Below, one piece after another: positions 1,820-25,995 of a DNA stretch of 27,012 bases. The stretch is from a virus: positions 1 to 27,012 of the IMG/VR virus record IMGVR_UViG_3300030333_008346. One strand, written 5' to 3'. How positions within the stretch are numbered: position 1 is the stretch's first letter; every line of letters begins with the position of its first letter. Position numbers and translations under genes: made by a program. The notes below the pieces were generated by a model that was not told the origin of the DNA, searched no databases, and saw only the letters and a list, made by a program, of their open reading frames with translations.

Positions 1820-3667
1820 ATGCCAAATTCTACAAACGATATATCAAATAAATTTTTAGATTTTAATCTACCGCAAGATGCATATGTTGCGTTTGATGCT
1901 GTAAGCTTAAAGGATTATATTATTGATCGATTAGACGATAATGAAAAATTTACGGATCAAAATTATGAAGGTAGTAACTTAGCAGCAGTAATTGATATAA
2001 TTGCTTATTCTTACCATGTTCTTTTATTTTACTTAAACAATACAGCTGCTGAGGTAAATTTTGATCAAGCTACTCTATATGAGAATATGAATAAGATCGT
2101 AAAGCTCATAGGGTATAAGCCGGCAGGTAAGCAAACCTCTATTGTACCAATAAATGCGGTTGCTTCTGCTGGTCTACCTACCGGTAATTACACTATTCGA
2201 AAATATTCTTACTTTCTAGCAGACGGTATTCAATATAATTTTATTGGAGATATTTCGTTTAATAGAAACTCACCTGGTGAAGTAGAAAAACTTGAAACAG
2301 TAAATAACGAAGCTATATTATATCAAGGTTCTATTAAAGAATATCCGGATTATACAGCTCAAGGTGAAGAGTTTGAAGTCTTACCAATTGTTGTTGATAA
2401 TATTGTCGATAATACAGATGATAAATTTATTGCTGATGGTACAATAAGTGTTTATGTTAAGGAGGCAGGTAACGATACGTATTATGAATACGATATTGTA
2501 GAGAGTTTATATCTTTCAAAGTCAGTCGACCGCGTTTGCGAGCTTAGATTAAATGAATACGGTCACTATGAAGTAAAATTTGGTAACGGGGTGTTTGGTA
2601 AAAAACTAACACAAGGTGATATTGTGTCTGTTGATTATTTGTTATCTGATAACGTTGCAGGTGTTATTAGCAAAAACGTTATTAATGGTAATAAACTATT
2701 TGTCTACGATTCAACTAGACAACGTGAGTTATTTCAAGATCTATACCCAAACAAGAGTGAAACTACCTTTTTAAATATTTCAAATAGCTCAAAAATTACA
2801 TTTAATAACCCACTTAATTCTTCTGCTCTTTCAACAGAAGAAACTGTTGAGCAGATTAGATTAAATGCTCCGAAATTATTTTCTTCACAATTAAGATTAG
2901 TAACAGAAAAGGATTATCAAGGATTTTTGGATAGAAATTTAGCTAACGTAATTACTAGTACACGTGTTGCAAATAATGATAGTTATATTAATGAATATAT
3001 ACAGTATTTTTATGATATATGTGTTGATCCTAATAAAGTAAATAGGGTAATAATTAACCAGGTAAATTTTGCTGATGCGTGTGATTTTAATAATATTAAC
3101 GTATTTGTTGTACCTAGATTTACCATTACTGAGGATAAAACTTATCCGCCCTTTTTAAGCAATTCATTTAAGAATTATATTGTAACGCAGACGCAGGACA
3201 GAAAAATGCTGTCTAATACTGTTGTTCCGAGAGATCCAATTTATATGGCTTTTGGATTAGGAATCGGTGATACGACTAATTTAACGTTGGATATATTAGA
3301 TCAAACTAAGCTATACGCTGTTAGGGAGACAAATAACAAAATTAATAAAACAACACTTAAGACGCGAATAGCTAGCATAATTAAGAAGTTTTTTGATCCT
3401 GAGGAAAACTCGCTTGGTCAAAATTTAAGCTTAACAAATCTTACCAATAATATTCTTTCTTTAGAGGGAATAAAGCGAATAGAGACTAGAAATGAATTAA
3501 CAGGGGAAATATTCACCGGTGGGGTGTCGTTTTTATCTTTTAACCCACAGTACCCGGAAAGTGATATAGAATTAGTAAACCAAGATAAAACATTACCGTT
3601 TTTTAAGTTTCCTTACTTATACTCACCGTTATCCGTGGCTAAGCGAATCGTTATAACAGATGAGTAA
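1820..3667 (+). CDS. 6: Baseplate wedge protein, gp6-like
   Basis: This protein of the baseplate J/gp6 family forms the inner wedge ring of the contractile-tail baseplate; in T4, gp6 dimers join neighbouring wedges. At 615 aa it is close to T4 gp6 (660 aa). The N-terminal region has YSYHVLLFYLNNTAAEVNF (about residues 63-81) followed by LYENMNKIVKLIGYKPAGKQ, a pattern typical of T4-type gp6. A central ELRLNEYGHYEVKFGNGVFG stretch and a VTEKDYQGFL segment near residue 360 also match the family. The start lies 4 nt after the gp25 stop. The end overlaps the next gene by 8 nt. No promoter is seen between gp25 and gp6, so the two are probably co-transcribed. Order gp25-gp6 is common in T4-like phages. 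Confidence 0.9.
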   Translation: MPNSTNDISNKFLDFNLPQDAYVAFDAVSLKDYIIDRLDDNEKFTDQNYEGSNLAAVIDIIAYSYHVLLFYLNNTAAEVNFDQATLYENMNKIVKLIGYKPAGKQTSIVPINAVASAGLPTGNYTIRKYSYFLADGIQYNFIGDISFNRNSPGEVEKLETVNNEAILYQGSIKEYPDYTAQGEEFEVLPIVVDNIVDNTDDKFIADGTISVYVKEAGNDTYYEYDIVESLYLSKSVDRVCELRLNEYGHYEVKFGNGVFGKKLTQGDIVSVDYLLSDNVAGVISKNVINGNKLFVYDSTRQRELFQDLYPNKSETTFLNISNSSKITFNNPLNSSALSTEETVEQIRLNAPKLFSSQLRLVTEKDYQGFLDRNLANVITSTRVANNDSYINEYIQYFYDICVDPNKVNRVIINQVNFADACDFNNINVFVVPRFTITEDKTYPPFLSNSFKNYIVTQTQDRKMLSNTVVPRDPIYMAFGLGIGDTTNLTLDILDQTKLYAVRETNNKINKTTLKTRIASIIKKFFDPEENSLGQNLSLTNLTNNILSLEGIKRIETRNELTGEIFTGGVSFLSFNPQYPESDIELVNQDKTLPFFKFPYLYSPLSVAKRIVITDE

Positions 3668-21545: not shown

Positions 21546-21553
21546 ATTAAATA
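21546..21553 (+). promoter_or_regulatory. Late promoter motif (ATTAAATA) of the lectin-mucin-glycosyltransferase unit
   Basis: ATTAAATA begins 4 nt after the upstream stop and ends 5 nt before the ATG at 21559. It has the same sequence as the motif before gp25. No further late motif with this spacing is seen before the next three genes, so it may drive all four. Confidence 0.5.
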
Positions 21554-21558
21554 TATAT

Positions 21559-22461
21559 ATGGCAGCATTAGAAGGTTACCCGACTGATATATCGTTACCC
21601 GCAGAATCTAGATTTTATACCTTTGTAGAGGTAGGTAAATCTTTTAATTCTAATTACGATATTACATGGTCTTTTCAATATAAACTACCTAGCTCAAGCT
21701 TTGATGCCAATAATACAACTTTTAAGAATTACCAGTTAGGTTTTTCAACATTTTTAACTAATTTACCTAGACCGTTATCATGCTTACCGGGACAATTTTT
21801 AGGTGATCAAGATCCTGAGTATATATTATCAGCATATTCATTATTAACAGAAGCTGAGGAGGTACTAAAAACAGAAGCAAACTCTAGTATTTTACTTGAA
21901 GGTGGTATATTAAGTGGGATGTTAGTTAAGGTTGCATTTGATTCTACAGGGAGATATGCTTTAACTGGGAGAGATGATAGACCAGGAGTGAAGGCTGAAA
22001 ACGTACTAAGGGAGTCAATTGTTGCACGAGACTTTTTACATAATGTAATTGCTTATAATCATCTTTCGTCTGTATCTACTACATTTAGTACTATATCTAC
22101 AGATACATATAGAACTTTGAGATTTAGATACGCTAATCTAGGGCAAACATTATATATAGATTCTCGCGAAAGTGATACAACTACTTACACTTTACTCACA
22201 GCACTTAAACTAGGTACGAGATACCGTTCTCTATCAAATATTGAAAATATATATTGTGGGTTTTCATTTAGTACACCTATATCAGCTACTCTCCCTGCAA
22301 CAGCTGCGGCATATAATTTAAGTGCAAAAGATTTTTTCTTGAGGAACTTCCATGTTGAAGGCTATGAAGGTAGTGAAGTGCTCACAGAAACTATATTAAC
22401 ACCTTCATTGAGCTCTGTACCAAATACAGTGTCAACAACTGTAACTAATATCACTGCATAA
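21559..22461 (+). CDS. Probable virion surface protein with lectin-like fold, 300 aa
   Basis: No family is recognised with certainty. The sequence reads as one beta-sandwich: DITWSFQYKLPSSSF near residue 35, then YRTLRFRYANLGQTLYIDSR near 190, NIYCGFSFSTPI near 230, and FFLRNFHVEGYEGSE near 265. A strand of the type L-x-I-D followed by G-F-S-F and F-x-L-x-N-F-x-V-E-G resembles LamG or legume-lectin-like domains. Carbohydrate binding is therefore a reasonable guess, not shown. The C-terminus is Ser/Thr/Val-rich. It shares its late unit with the mucin-like gene, whose ATG overlaps its stop (TAATG). It may be the partner or tip of that protein. Confidence 0.8.
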   Translation: MAALEGYPTDISLPAESRFYTFVEVGKSFNSNYDITWSFQYKLPSSSFDANNTTFKNYQLGFSTFLTNLPRPLSCLPGQFLGDQDPEYILSAYSLLTEAEEVLKTEANSSILLEGGILSGMLVKVAFDSTGRYALTGRDDRPGVKAENVLRESIVARDFLHNVIAYNHLSSVSTTFSTISTDTYRTLRFRYANLGQTLYIDSRESDTTTYTLLTALKLGTRYRSLSNIENIYCGFSFSTPISATLPATAAAYNLSAKDFFLRNFHVEGYEGSEVLTETILTPSLSSVPNTVSTTVTNITA

Positions 22462-24350
22462 TGGCAACATCAGATACAACACCCGACCCTATGGATCTTA
22501 TATCAGGTACTCCAGAACCTGCCGGGATTAATATAGGCAGTCCAAATGTTGCAATATCAGATATTGTCTGCGATATAACTTCATACCCTCTATTAGGGTC
22601 TGGTGGTGTACCAAATTCTTTCCAAAACACTACTGGTATTGTTGATATTAATTATGTTACTTTAACTGAAAACGTTGACGGTAGTATAATATATTATGTC
22701 GAAGATTTCAATAATAAAGAAGAATTAAGCGACGGAGAGACAGCATCTACTATTAATGATGATCCTAATACCCCTGACCACAAAGGAAGGGTTTACTTAA
22801 GTCTAACAGGAGTAGTGTTGGCAGCTGATCCGAGTGATGGTAGTATGGATGTAACTGTTACTCTTCAACAAATTATTAATGGTGAGCCGTACACAAAATC
22901 ACTTACCAAAAATATATCTAACCCTGTAAGACCGAGTAGAATTACTACAACACCGCCACCAACAACGGGGCCACCTGACGATGGTACCGGAAGTACTACG
23001 AGTACTACGACACCGCGGCCTATAATACAAGAAAATTTATACACTTCTGGTGGGGAGTTTATTTTAAGAAGCACAGGTGAAGAATATATAGGGTTCTACC
23101 ATATTCACCCTGATAAAGGACCTATGGAAGGTCCATTACATATAGATGCCCCGCATGGATATTTAGATATAGTAGAAGATGAACCTACTACAACCCCACC
23201 ACCAGGAGCTACAACTCCACCGCCAGGAGCTACAACTCCGCCGCCAGGAGCTACGACGCCGCCACCGACCCCACCTCCATCAACTCCACCTCCATCAACT
23301 CCACCTCCATCAACCCCGCCGCCAGAAGAACAAGAGTGGACTTTATCTATAGTAAATGATTCACAGGATAATAATATATTTTTATTTGCTCCAGAAAGTG
23401 GACGAATTGCTCTAAGACCAGGTGAAACACAAGTAATTACAAAGAAACAAAATCTTTTTAGTTTTCGTCTGCTCGACTCTCCGGCCGGTACAAAATATCA
23501 AGAAAATAATTTTACACATACTGCAACCACAGAAGATGCCGGAATTCCGGACCTGGAGCTTGTTAACACTAGTTTTAATGGTTATATTACTAGAAACTTT
23601 AATGGGTCAATCTCTATAGCTATTGGGGCAAAAAGAACGACAACTACGTCTACAACTACCTCAACAACAACAACAATACCACCTCGGGTTTATTGTGAGT
23701 TGCCAAAAGTGTGGGACGAACAAGCTGGTAAATGTGTATGCCCGGATGGTTTTAGAGAAGATGAAGAAGGAAATTGTATACCTATAGGTGATACTTCTAC
23801 AGAAAACATAGATGAAAGTACATCTGGAGGATCATCTGGGTTTCCTGATGGTAGTGATGGTTTTGACTCCGGGTTAATTCGCACTGGACCGGGTCCAACA
23901 GGAGGTTGGGATCAATCTTATACTGAGGAGACTACTACACCACCGCCCACAACCTATCCACCGTATTACACCACTACCACTACTACAACCTCAACAACAA
24001 CGTCGACAACACCGTACTATACAACCCCACCGCCTCCATGTACGCAGACAACTAGAAGGCCGCACTCAGCGCCACAAACTCGACCTCCGAGAGTGACACC
24101 AGCTCCCGGTACACCAGCGCCTCCGACGCCTAGACCCCCGGAAGAGGTTGAAGACACAACGACAACCAGAGCGCCAATTTACCCTGCACCAATATTACCC
24201 CTACAAGTACCGTTCTTAATGATTCCAGAAGCAATTACTACTACCCCGGCGGTTGTAACTACTACAACTCCGAGTCCAGTAACTAGTACACTTCCGCCTA
24301 CTACAACAATATGTCCTGAAGATCCTGATTGCAATATTCTGCAATTTTAG
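22461..24350 (+). CDS. Mucin-like Thr/Pro-rich virion protein with repeats, 629 aa
   Basis: This is a modular protein. An N-terminal beta-type domain (about 15-155) is followed by a Thr/Pro linker (161-190) and a small module with YTSGGEFILRSTGEEYIGFY then H214, H216, H227 and H232. After that comes a repeat linker (244-290) made of TTPPPGA and STPPP units, a second beta domain (about 292-390), Thr runs (392-409), and a four-cysteine module (C412, C425, C427, C439) with CVCPDGF, resembling a small EGF-like unit. A long Thr/Pro-rich end (491-629) follows. There is no signal peptide. The Thr/Pro tracts resemble mucin stalks, and two glycosyltransferase genes follow directly, so glycosylation is a strong suspicion but not shown. 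The start overlaps the previous stop by 1 nt. Confidence 0.85.
   Translation: MATSDTTPDPMDLISGTPEPAGINIGSPNVAISDIVCDITSYPLLGSGGVPNSFQNTTGIVDINYVTLTENVDGSIIYYVEDFNNKEELSDGETASTINDDPNTPDHKGRVYLSLTGVVLAADPSDGSMDVTVTLQQIINGEPYTKSLTKNISNPVRPSRITTTPPPTTGPPDDGTGSTTSTTTPRPIIQENLYTSGGEFILRSTGEEYIGFYHIHPDKGPMEGPLHIDAPHGYLDIVEDEPTTTPPPGATTPPPGATTPPPGATTPPPTPPPSTPPPSTPPPSTPPPEEQEWTLSIVNDSQDNNIFLFAPESGRIALRPGETQVITKKQNLFSFRLLDSPAGTKYQENNFTHTATTEDAGIPDLELVNTSFNGYITRNFNGSISIAIGAKRTTTTSTTTSTTTTIPPRVYCELPKVWDEQAGKCVCPDGFREDEEGNCIPIGDTSTENIDESTSGGSSGFPDGSDGFDSGLIRTGPGPTGGWDQSYTEETTTPPPTTYPPYYTTTTTTTSTTTSTTPYYTTPPPPCTQTTRRPHSAPQTRPPRVTPAPGTPAPPTPRPPEEVEDTTTTRAPIYPAPILPLQVPFLMIPEAITTTPAVVTTTTPSPVTSTLPPTTTICPEDPDCNILQF
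23190..23267 (+). repeat. 21-bp tandem repeat (TTPPPGA), 3.7 copies
   Basis: Units at 23190-23210, 23211-23231 and 23232-23252 encode Thr-Thr-Pro-Pro-Pro-Gly-Ala. A partial fourth unit (23253-23267) encodes TTPPP. Copies differ at only a few third-codon positions, which suggests recent expansion. Confidence 0.9.
23268..23325 (+). repeat. 15-bp tandem repeat (TPPPS), about 3.8 copies
   Basis: Units ACTCCACCTCCATCA at 23283-23297 and 23298-23312 are identical. The unit at 23268-23282 has one change, and a partial unit (TPPP) follows at 23313. It directly abuts the 21-bp repeat. Confidence 0.88.
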
Positions 24351-24361
24351 TAATTATTAGT

Positions 24362-25192
24362 GTGGGAAAACTTACTATTGGAACATGTGTTCATGATGAT
24401 TTTGAGGGTCTTTACTTTACACTACAATCTATAAGATTGCATCATAAAGACGTATTAGATCGATTAGAATTTGTTGTTATTAACAACAATCCAAAATCAC
24501 CAGAGGGTCAAGAGATACGTAAATTAATGGCTTGGATAAAACAACCTTTAACATATGTTGAATTTGATGCATTTTCTGCAACATCTTTAAGAGATAAAAT
24601 TTTTGGTCTAGCTAATACGGAGTATGTTTTAGTAATGGATTGTCACGTATTACTCGAGTCTAATAGCTTAGCTAAGTTACTTGATTTTTATGACGCAGGA
24701 AAGGATAAAGGAAATCTTCTACAAGGTCCTCTAGTGTATGACGATATAGAGGGTATAAGTACGCATTTTGATCTCAATAAATGGGGCGCAGATATGTGGG
24801 GTGTATGGGAAACAGATAAAAGGGGGAGAGATCCAAATTCAAAACCTTTCGAAATACCAGCTCAAGGTCTCGGGCTGTTTACTTGCAGAAAGGACAGTTG
24901 GTTAGGGTTTAATAAAAAATTTAGAGGTTTCGGTGGTGAGGAAGGGTATATACATGAAAAGTATCGTAACGCGGGCCGAAAAACGATGTGCTTACCTTTT
25001 TTACGATGGTTACATAGATTTGGTCGTCCGTTAGGCGTATCCTACAGTCCAACAATAGATGATAGGTTTCGTAATTATATGATAGGTTTTCAAGAAATTG
25101 GTAGAGATACTAATGAGATTATTGAAAGATTTAAAGATAAAGTATCACAAGAGCATATTCAAGCTGTTAAAAAAGAACTGGATATAGTATGA
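24362..25192 (+). CDS. Glycosyltransferase, GT-A fold, family 2/27-like, with DxH motif
   Basis: The start KLTIGTCVHDDFEGLYFTLQ, then FVVINNNP, are the nucleotide-binding strands of a GT2-type GT-A enzyme. With the GTG start at 24362 (276 aa), VLVMDCH places D93-C-H95 at the metal site. A D-x-H here, instead of D-x-D, is typical of polypeptide GalNAc-transferases (family 27). Later come IPAQGLGLFTCRKDSW, FRGFGGEEGYIHEKYRNAG (about 188-206) and LRWLHRFGRP, which parallel the acceptor-site GGLF, WGGEN and final GH-x-x-R of that family. I call it GT2/27-like and cannot prove the sugar or acceptor. An upstream TTG at 24329 is possible but would overlap the mucin-like gene by 22 nt and adds a non-conserved hydrophobic stretch. 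It is a soluble enzyme with no membrane anchor. Confidence 0.85.
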   Translation: MGKLTIGTCVHDDFEGLYFTLQSIRLHHKDVLDRLEFVVINNNPKSPEGQEIRKLMAWIKQPLTYVEFDAFSATSLRDKIFGLANTEYVLVMDCHVLLESNSLAKLLDFYDAGKDKGNLLQGPLVYDDIEGISTHFDLNKWGADMWGVWETDKRGRDPNSKPFEIPAQGLGLFTCRKDSWLGFNKKFRGFGGEEGYIHEKYRNAGRKTMCLPFLRWLHRFGRPLGVSYSPTIDDRFRNYMIGFQEIGRDTNEIIERFKDKVSQEHIQAVKKELDIV

Positions 25193-25995
25193 GAGAAACA
25201 GTTGGTATAGTGGTAATAGCTTCAAATGGCTATTTTCCACTTGGAATACGATTTATAAAAAAATTTGATAGCTTCTATAGAGGTGATTATACTATCAAGT
25301 ATTTTTTCTTTTCTAATACTTCCCCACATAGCTGTATATCAAAGGAAATGTCTCGTCGAGTGAAGCATATGCCTGTATTGCACGAAACGTGGGTAGATAG
25401 CACTAATTCAAAATTTACCGGTATAAAAAGTATCGATGAAGTGCCAGAATGGCGAGATATAGATTATATCTATTATTTCGATGCTGATACAAATATTTCA
25501 AAACCGTTTAAGGATTGGTTTATTGGTGATCTTGTGGGCGGTGAACACTTTCATTCAAGAAAATGGATGCAAGAGGGGTTAAGTAGCTTTCCGTTCGAAC
25601 GAAACGAAGACTCCCAATGTTATATTCCTGAAGATACAAATCTATTTACAATGTACTATTATGGGGCTTTCTTTGGGGGAAAGCGTAATAAGGTTTTTGA
25701 TTTCAGTGATACATTAATAGAGAGGCAAATAGAGGATAGAAATAAAGGTATTGAGCCTATTTTTAACGACGAAAGTTACATAAACCACTATTTTCATTAT
25801 AATATGCCAAAAATAATCTACACAGAACACTTTCCCTTCTTAGTTAGTTGTAAGGGTGGGTTAGAATCTTTTGGTACGCCAGAAAAGGGGTGGTTAAGAG
25901 ATCCAAATATTAATATCGATAGTTTAATTAAAACTTTACAGAGAAATAAAAACGAAACTATTGATGTTGCTAATGGTAAAATTGTAGTAGGTTAA
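25189..25995 (+). CDS. Family 6 glycosyltransferase (ABO blood-group-like)
   Basis: This 268-aa protein matches the GT6 catalytic domain, which transfers Gal or GalNAc in alpha-1,3 linkage to a galactoside. Visible GT6 features are YYFDADTNISKPF with D98-A-D100 (metal site), VGGEHFHSRKW (117-126), FPFERNEDSQCYIP (134-147), YYYGAFFGG (156-164) and NDESYINHYF (193-202). The mammalian enzymes have the same ERRPxSxAYIP, GGFFGG and DESHLNKY elements. Most bacterial members I know of have N-x-N where this one keeps D-x-D. There is no membrane anchor, so it acts in the host cytoplasm. It is coupled to the previous glycosyltransferase by ATGA. Its stop shares TTAA with the convergent 77-aa gene. The sugar donor and acceptor are unknown. 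Confidence 0.92.
   Translation: MRETVGIVVIASNGYFPLGIRFIKKFDSFYRGDYTIKYFFFSNTSPHSCISKEMSRRVKHMPVLHETWVDSTNSKFTGIKSIDEVPEWRDIDYIYYFDADTNISKPFKDWFIGDLVGGEHFHSRKWMQEGLSSFPFERNEDSQCYIPEDTNLFTMYYYGAFFGGKRNKVFDFSDTLIERQIEDRNKGIEPIFNDESYINHYFHYNMPKIIYTEHFPFLVSCKGGLESFGTPEKGWLRDPNINIDSLIKTLQRNKNETIDVANGKIVVG

Follow-up and report, generated by a model that had tools for sequence, protein, structure and literature searches.

Introduction

The polypeptide GalNAc-transferases of animals and protists, i.e., family GT27, start mucin-type O-glycans. A second glycosyltransferase family, GT6, includes the ABO-type transferases, BoGT6a and a gene of phage P-SSM2. Glycosylation of virions as such is already known from mycobacteriophages, in which the C-termini of capsid and tail-tube proteins carry glycans (Freeman et al. 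2023, cited in PMC12619734). The glycosyltransferases found in the host-recognition clusters of pelagimyophages and cyanomyophages have been interpreted as host O-antigen modifiers (PMC7029224).

Here we analyse the IMG/VR record IMGVR_UViG_3300030333_008346 from an uncultured marine T4-like phage, the whole of which, 27,012 bases, was examined as one stretch (hereafter the window). Near its tail fibre genes lies a unit of four genes, encoding the conserved protein n300, a protein with long Thr/Pro/Ser (T/P/S) tracts (hereafter the T/P protein), a GT-A glycosyltransferase and a GT6 glycosyltransferase:

21559-22461, + strand: n300, a 300-aa conserved open reading frame (ORF), first gene of the unit and synteny marker across phages (41 homologous loci)
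22461-24350, + strand: 629-aa T/P/S-tract protein (ORF and composition), proposed O-glycosylation substrate and putative fibre
24362-25192, + strand: 276-aa GT-A glycosyltransferase (PF00535, AlphaFold2 model, fold search), proposed initiating enzyme
25189-25995, + strand: 268-aa GT6 glycosyltransferase (PF03414, motifs), in a variable slot, proposed elongating enzyme

With a probability of about 0.72, we read this unit as a phage protein O-glycosylation cassette, in which the GT-A enzyme starts a glycan on the adjacent T/P protein and the enzyme in the slot that follows extends it. An earlier note, made from the sequence alone, had proposed that both enzymes, as a matched pair, put O-glycans on the phage's own Thr/Pro protein. 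For the neighbouring GT-A enzyme this proposal finds good support in the predicted fold, in the association across phages, in bacterial relatives and in a natural comparison between phages that have the enzyme and phages that lack it; for GT6 as the matched enzyme it is weaker.

As in mycobacteriophages, the glycosyltransferases are phage-encoded and would act on the phage's own structural proteins, with the gene here adjoining that of its putative substrate, a protein probably located in the virion. The putative target differs, being a long Thr/Pro-tract protein rather than the capsid and tail-tube C-termini described for mycobacteriophages. The locus shares with those of pelagimyophages and cyanomyophages a T4-like marine phage origin and glycosyltransferases among tail-fibre genes (PMC7029224); the text of that paper does not mention Thr-rich partners, and the host O-antigen view does not explain the tract pairing described below.

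Results

A predicted GT27-like fold beside a tract protein

An AlphaFold2 model of the GT-A enzyme, built from 46 relatives, reached a predicted local distance difference test score (pLDDT) of 92.7. Its 29 best fold matches in the PDB were all GT27 enzymes (Z 19.7-23.5 over ~250 residues, 13-16% identity), followed by K4 chondroitin polymerase (Z 18.9), and the structure comparison with GT2 and GT27 folds that the earlier note had called for came out with GT27 as the closest. Among predicted viral structures there was one close match, an uncharacterised phage protein with 30% identity. The D-C-H metal site and GGLF/WGGEN-like region described in the earlier note were likewise seen, with ..GLGLF.. 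and RGFGGEEGYIH unchanged or almost unchanged across the 46 relatives, among which the following were also scored:

24638-24646, + strand: D93-x-H95 (D-C-H in the window), putative metal site, invariant
24926-24955, + strand: GFGGEEGYIH motif, with G189, F190, G191, E193, E194, Y196, I197 and H198 invariant and G192 and G195 nearly so
25007-25015, + strand: W216-x-H218, candidate third metal ligand, invariant

By position, (R)GFGGEEGY is probably the counterpart of the GT27 WGGEN motif. The enzyme resembles animal and protist GT27 in several respects: the GT-A fold spans its whole length (Z up to 23.5), it has D-x-H and a motif of the GGE type, and its partner protein is rich in Thr, Ser and Pro. 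It differs from them in its low sequence identity, in a prokaryotic cytoplasm without Golgi, in matching no GT27 profile and in having no C-terminal ricin-type lectin domain, since nothing follows the catalytic domain. Given the missing sequence-profile link and lectin domain we do not file it as GT27; it is predicted from the model to work like GT27, though fold likeness alone is no proof of function. The only Pfam family above cut-off was PF00535 (Glycos_transf_2; 27 bits against a cut-off of 23.3, 5e-6), and no model in the PHROGs and NCBIfam libraries matched. There were 264 relatives of the GT-A query in viral contigs and no cultured relative in 50,697 phage records (tblastn, two enzyme queries).

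The adjacent protein consists of 17.8% Thr, 15.3% Pro and 7.3% Ser, with five tracts between small domains. Its T/P/S content peaks at 93% per 30 residues, against at most 50% in all other measured ORFs of the window, and its longest T/P/S run (24) was never reached in 5000 shuffles, so that the long tracts ascribed to this protein are borne out. The Thr codons are mixed (ACA 45, ACT 41, ACC 15, ACG 11), and identical ones stand next to each other at a frequency of 0.30, where 0.32 would be expected. This rules out a microsatellite origin, and the tracts therefore look selected at the protein level.

Association of enzyme and tracts across phages

Relatives of the enzyme from viral contigs were reduced to 74 clusters, the records being metagenomic and many of them fragments. 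Gene calls came from a simple script, which first took other-strand frames at L049, L055 and L110, and a tract was scored where at least 70% of 30 residues were T/P/S. The gene directly upstream of the enzyme carried a tract in 44 of 73 clusters, compared with 8 of 1034 genes more than two places away, and when a random gene was drawn from the same locus at most 13 were tract-bearing in 5000 draws. The survey for co-occurrence that the earlier note had recommended is positive for enzyme and tract gene. Most of the upstream tract partners are unlike one another. On the enzyme tree the tract label needs five changes, compared with 18 when labels are shuffled; this label was set by hand for 53 rows and takes in three frames missed by the caller, other-strand neighbours and neighbours recognised by the C-terminal Cys tag only (see below). 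L073, where upstream sequence is absent, was left unjudged.

Since n300 serves as a landmark for this position whether or not a phage has the enzyme, the two kinds of phage can be compared directly. Those without it (L204, L207, L210, L211, L217, L222 and L309) keep a long tagged protein with short or absent tracts; the enzyme was searched for in the whole records of seven such loci, one of 171 kb, and none was found. The median of the maximum T/P/S content was 0.58 without the enzyme and 0.90 with it. Intervals between n300 and m77, an opposite-strand gene beyond the unit, held a tract of at least 0.8 in 29 of 37 cases with the enzyme and in 0 of 8 without (Fisher 6e-5); L219, which has no enzyme and reaches at most 0.77 T/P/S per 30 residues, was merged with L217 here. 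With the tag kept and tracts low where the enzyme is missing, the tag accompanies the fibre and tract richness the enzyme, a correlation that is quantitative and not absolute.

At L223:2468-2707 and the matching place in L224, directly after n300, there is a weak match with two stops that appears to be a degraded remnant of the enzyme's C-terminal part; no tract gene lies there.

Bacterial relatives

In many bacteria the enzyme makes up one domain of a longer protein, frequently in fusion with a GT25- or GT9-like domain, and two bacterial enzymes have HprK-related N-terminal parts. A Thr/Ser-tract gene lay within two genes of it in 15 of 75 bacterial clusters, compared with 2 of 368 background genes (p 8e-11). 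The phage tail region plays no part in these loci, which therefore lend the pairing separate support. In the examples inspected, the bacterial tract proteins begin with twin-arginine translocation (TAT)-like signals, followed by the tracts. A PqqD domain is found in the tract protein of L262 and L283 and is fused to the enzyme in L238; PqqD proteins are peptide chaperones in peptide-modifying systems, and as such their presence points to a protein substrate. The bacterial loci look like an undescribed protein-glycosylation system.

Enzyme homologues adjoin Thr/Ser-tract proteins in L229, L238, L262, L283 and L293, with sulfotransferases and PqqD in some of them.

GT6 and the variable slot

The identification of the last gene as GT6 stands: PF03414 scores 79.1 bits against a cut-off of 25 (3e-22), and the motifs D98-A-D and NDES (residues 193-196) are present, as they are in L001, L083, L090 and L100. 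NCBIfam Gltr_6 scored 84.9, below its cut-off of 250. It thus resembles known GT6 enzymes in its Pfam score, DxD and NDES, the P-SSM2 gene being a distant relative (24.8% identity), and differs from them in sitting in the variable slot of a proposed protein-glycosylation cassette.

The slot between the GT-A enzyme and m77 is occupied by GT6 only in the window phage and its nearest relative L001. Elsewhere it holds a GT2-like gene (L015, L019, L022), GT2 with a GT32-like gene and a methyltransferase (L020, L021), a GT29-like sialyltransferase-family protein and a PIG-L deacetylase domain (L028:10822-14377), a polysialyltransferase-like protein with GT2 and a sulfotransferase (L025:1040-3222) or a GT31-like galactosyltransferase (L106:2295-3746), and in some phages it is empty. 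GT6 relatives elsewhere have other neighbours, not T/P proteins. The idea of GT6 as an obligatory partner is rejected on these grounds and that of a matched second partner is weakened; GT6 is better regarded as one of several interchangeable extending enzymes. The slot genes belong to glycan-extending families, which we count in favour of a cassette, and the way they are exchanged would be in line with selection for varied glycans.

Architecture of the tract protein and its tag

The T/P protein, whose homologues at the same place range from 753 to 2431 aa, is made up as follows:

22530-22918, + strand: N-terminal domain, predicted beta-rich (alignment; model pLDDT 77.5)
22917-23021, + strand: T/P/S tract 1, residues 153-187 (composition)
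23022-23195, + strand: module ..ENLYTSGGEF..YIGFYHIHPDKGPMEGPLH.. (sequence comparison)
23184-23324, + strand: T/P/S tract 2, residues 242-288 (composition)
23637-23684, + strand: T/P/S tract 3, residues 393-408 (composition)
23916-24140, + strand: T/P/S tract 4, residues 486-560 (composition)
24258-24326, + strand: T/P/S tract 5, residues 600-622 (composition)
24312-24350, + strand: C-terminal tag CPEDPDCNILQF-stop, common to T/P proteins of otherwise mostly dissimilar sequence

A fold search with the N-terminal domain gave GH2 sandwich domains as the best PDB match at Z 7.6, which is within the usual noise and not diagnostic. The module with FYHIHPDKGPMEGPLH also occurs in the T/P proteins of related phages and in their tail-region genes upstream, so that the T/P protein fits a structural protein; its position and modules suggest a fibre. 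The YIGFYHIHPDKGPMEGPLH module is also found at L204:562-714 and L211:661-837, and in genes of relatives several kb 5' of n300, and such sharing suggests module exchange among tail proteins.

The tag has the consensus C-x(n)-C-[NK]-x-L-x-[FYW]-stop and ends T/P proteins of, e.g., the window, L003, L022, L048, L119 and L077. In distant phages there is little obvious likeness to the window T/P protein beyond the tag. The 74 clusters contain 8852 open frames of at least 40 codons; C-x-x-L-x-[FY] stands at the end of 56, nearly all of them T/P-rich and adjoining the enzyme. A tagged ORF lies directly upstream of the GT-A enzyme in 45 of the 74, and several phages carry two or three tag-ending proteins. 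The tag also ends tract-poor proteins of phages without the enzyme, and because it is kept in these syntenic proteins it is unlikely to be a glycosylation signal. Our guess is a role in attachment or assembly.

Genome setting of the unit

A 615-aa baseplate wedge subunit with kin in cyanophages and other marine phages is encoded at 1820-3667, and two tail genes of the window have Collar and Mtd_N domains (Pfam). The ORFs of the unit and their junctions are as the earlier note had them: the n300 stop TAA (22459-22461) overlaps the T/P ATG at 22461 (TAATG), the T/P stop at 24350 is separated from the GTG start of the GT-A gene at 24362 by 11 nt, and the GT-A and GT6 genes overlap by ATGA at 25189. 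The start it gave, 21546, lies 13 nt 5' of n300, which adds a fourth gene to the three it named. The late promoter that it placed upstream is not supported, as TATAAATA with at most one mismatch occurs 136 times in the window compared with 128 expected by chance; the similar site near the unit, TATATATA at 21552-21559, touches the n300 ATG. Sigma-70 sites were at background, and the late promoter was rejected. No match to n300 of the window or of L211 was found in cultured phages (tblastn).

Opposite-strand genes m77, m151 and m88 lie 3' of GT6. In L030-L035 the enzyme shares with m88, m151 and m77 the strand opposite that of the fibre genes, and no tract partner is nearby.

Discussion

The data show the genes, the predicted fold, the motifs, the association and the scarcity of tracts in phages lacking the enzyme; the reaction on the peptide, its donor sugar, the sequence of events, the place in the virion and the benefit are what we infer beyond them. 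The GT-A enzyme would place the first sugar on Thr or Ser residues within the tracts of the protein whose gene directly precedes its own, acting in the host cytoplasm either ahead of virion assembly or while it is under way, and the product of the next gene, here GT6, would add a further sugar or modification, this gene being swapped between phages. The substrate would be a tail-associated protein of small domains joined by T/P linkers, with a conserved C-terminal Cys tag that more likely serves assembly or attachment than glycosylation. Candidate benefits are stiffening of the linkers, shielding, adhesion and antigen variation, and the evidence gives no preference among the receptor mimic, stiffener and shield that the earlier note had put forward. 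A literature search found no paper on the pairing of enzyme and tract protein, subscription journals and preprints lying outside its reach.

Several observations weigh against this mechanism. By sequence the enzyme is not recognisable as GT27: no GalNAc-transferase chain reached E 10 in a PDB profile search, and the profiles give the broad GT2 Pfam family. Three crown lineages have the enzyme without a nearby T/P gene (L036/037/054/057/062; L031/034; L156/147), the first of them without the tag in all records searched. The earlier note had taken glycosyltransferases lacking a Thr/Pro-rich partner in related genomes as telling against its proposal, which applies in part, i.e., to these lineages, most clusters being paired. 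Shorter Thr runs occur without the enzyme in L217, L219 and L210 (runs of 10-13 in L217 and L219), L024 has the enzyme and almost no tracts, and four in five bacterial clusters have no tract neighbour. Furthermore, the clusters and loci are related by descent and gene calling was crude, so the p-values overstate independence.

In the exceptional lineages the enzyme lies directly 3' of n300 with no T/P gene between, and in L156 and L147, both counted as enzyme carriers, n300 overlaps the enzyme gene. Two other readings of the unit draw on these lineages. It is unlikely, though the strongest alternative, that both enzymes modify host lipopolysaccharide (LPS) or another surface glycan against superinfection and adjoin T/P genes because host-recognition regions collect such genes. 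Pelagimyophage host-recognition-cluster glycosyltransferases have been read this way (PMC7029224), GT6 and the other slot families can act on saccharides, three lineages have the enzyme without a T/P gene, and its bacterial relatives are often fused to the GT25- and GT9-like domains known from LPS synthesis. However, an LPS role predicts neither the pairing with mostly unalike tract proteins (44/73 against a background of 0.8%) nor the low tract content without the enzyme, nor a GT27-like fold or the TAT and PqqD features found next to the bacterial enzymes, and we also count against it that GT6 relatives elsewhere have no T/P neighbours.

It is somewhat less probable again that the tracts are bare stiff linkers and that the glycosyltransferase acts on another virion protein, e.g., n300 or neighbouring fibres. 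The place of the enzyme after n300 in the exceptional lineages, the fairly Thr/Ser-rich composition of n300 (11.7% each) and the nearly tract-free L024 would suit this, but n300 is equally present without the enzyme, whereas tract content changes, and n300 is absent where a bacterial relative adjoins a tract protein. Glycosylation of phage DNA against host restriction is very improbable: phage glycosyltransferases are often DNA-modifying (also in PMC12619734), but the unit sits in a stretch of tail genes, the nearest folds are those of enzymes for proteins and polysaccharides, and no modified-base gene was seen near the unit in the 27,012-base window, which is not a whole genome.

Beyond the cassette itself, a wider claim seems to us evenly poised, namely that the mucin-type system has a prokaryotic counterpart, in which a GT27-like family spread through aquatic phages and bacteria initiates glycans on the Thr/Ser tracts of unalike proteins, with phages diversifying the glycans by slot swaps (GT6, GT29-like, GT31-like, sulfotransferase). 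The loci suggest that mucin-like glycoproteins are among the products of prokaryotes and their viruses, and the likeness to animal mucin synthesis raises the question of common descent or convergence.

If O-glycosylation of the T/P protein is true, it would be a second, different route to glycosylated phage particles. It would give a function to a glycosyltransferase family without PHROGs or NCBIfam match and would predict sugar-bearing proteins. The bacterial relatives would be tractable systems and candidate tools for placing O-glycans on Thr tracts in E. coli. Some marine-phage host-recognition glycosyltransferases would then be reread, from modifiers of the host O-antigen to makers of phage glycoproteins.

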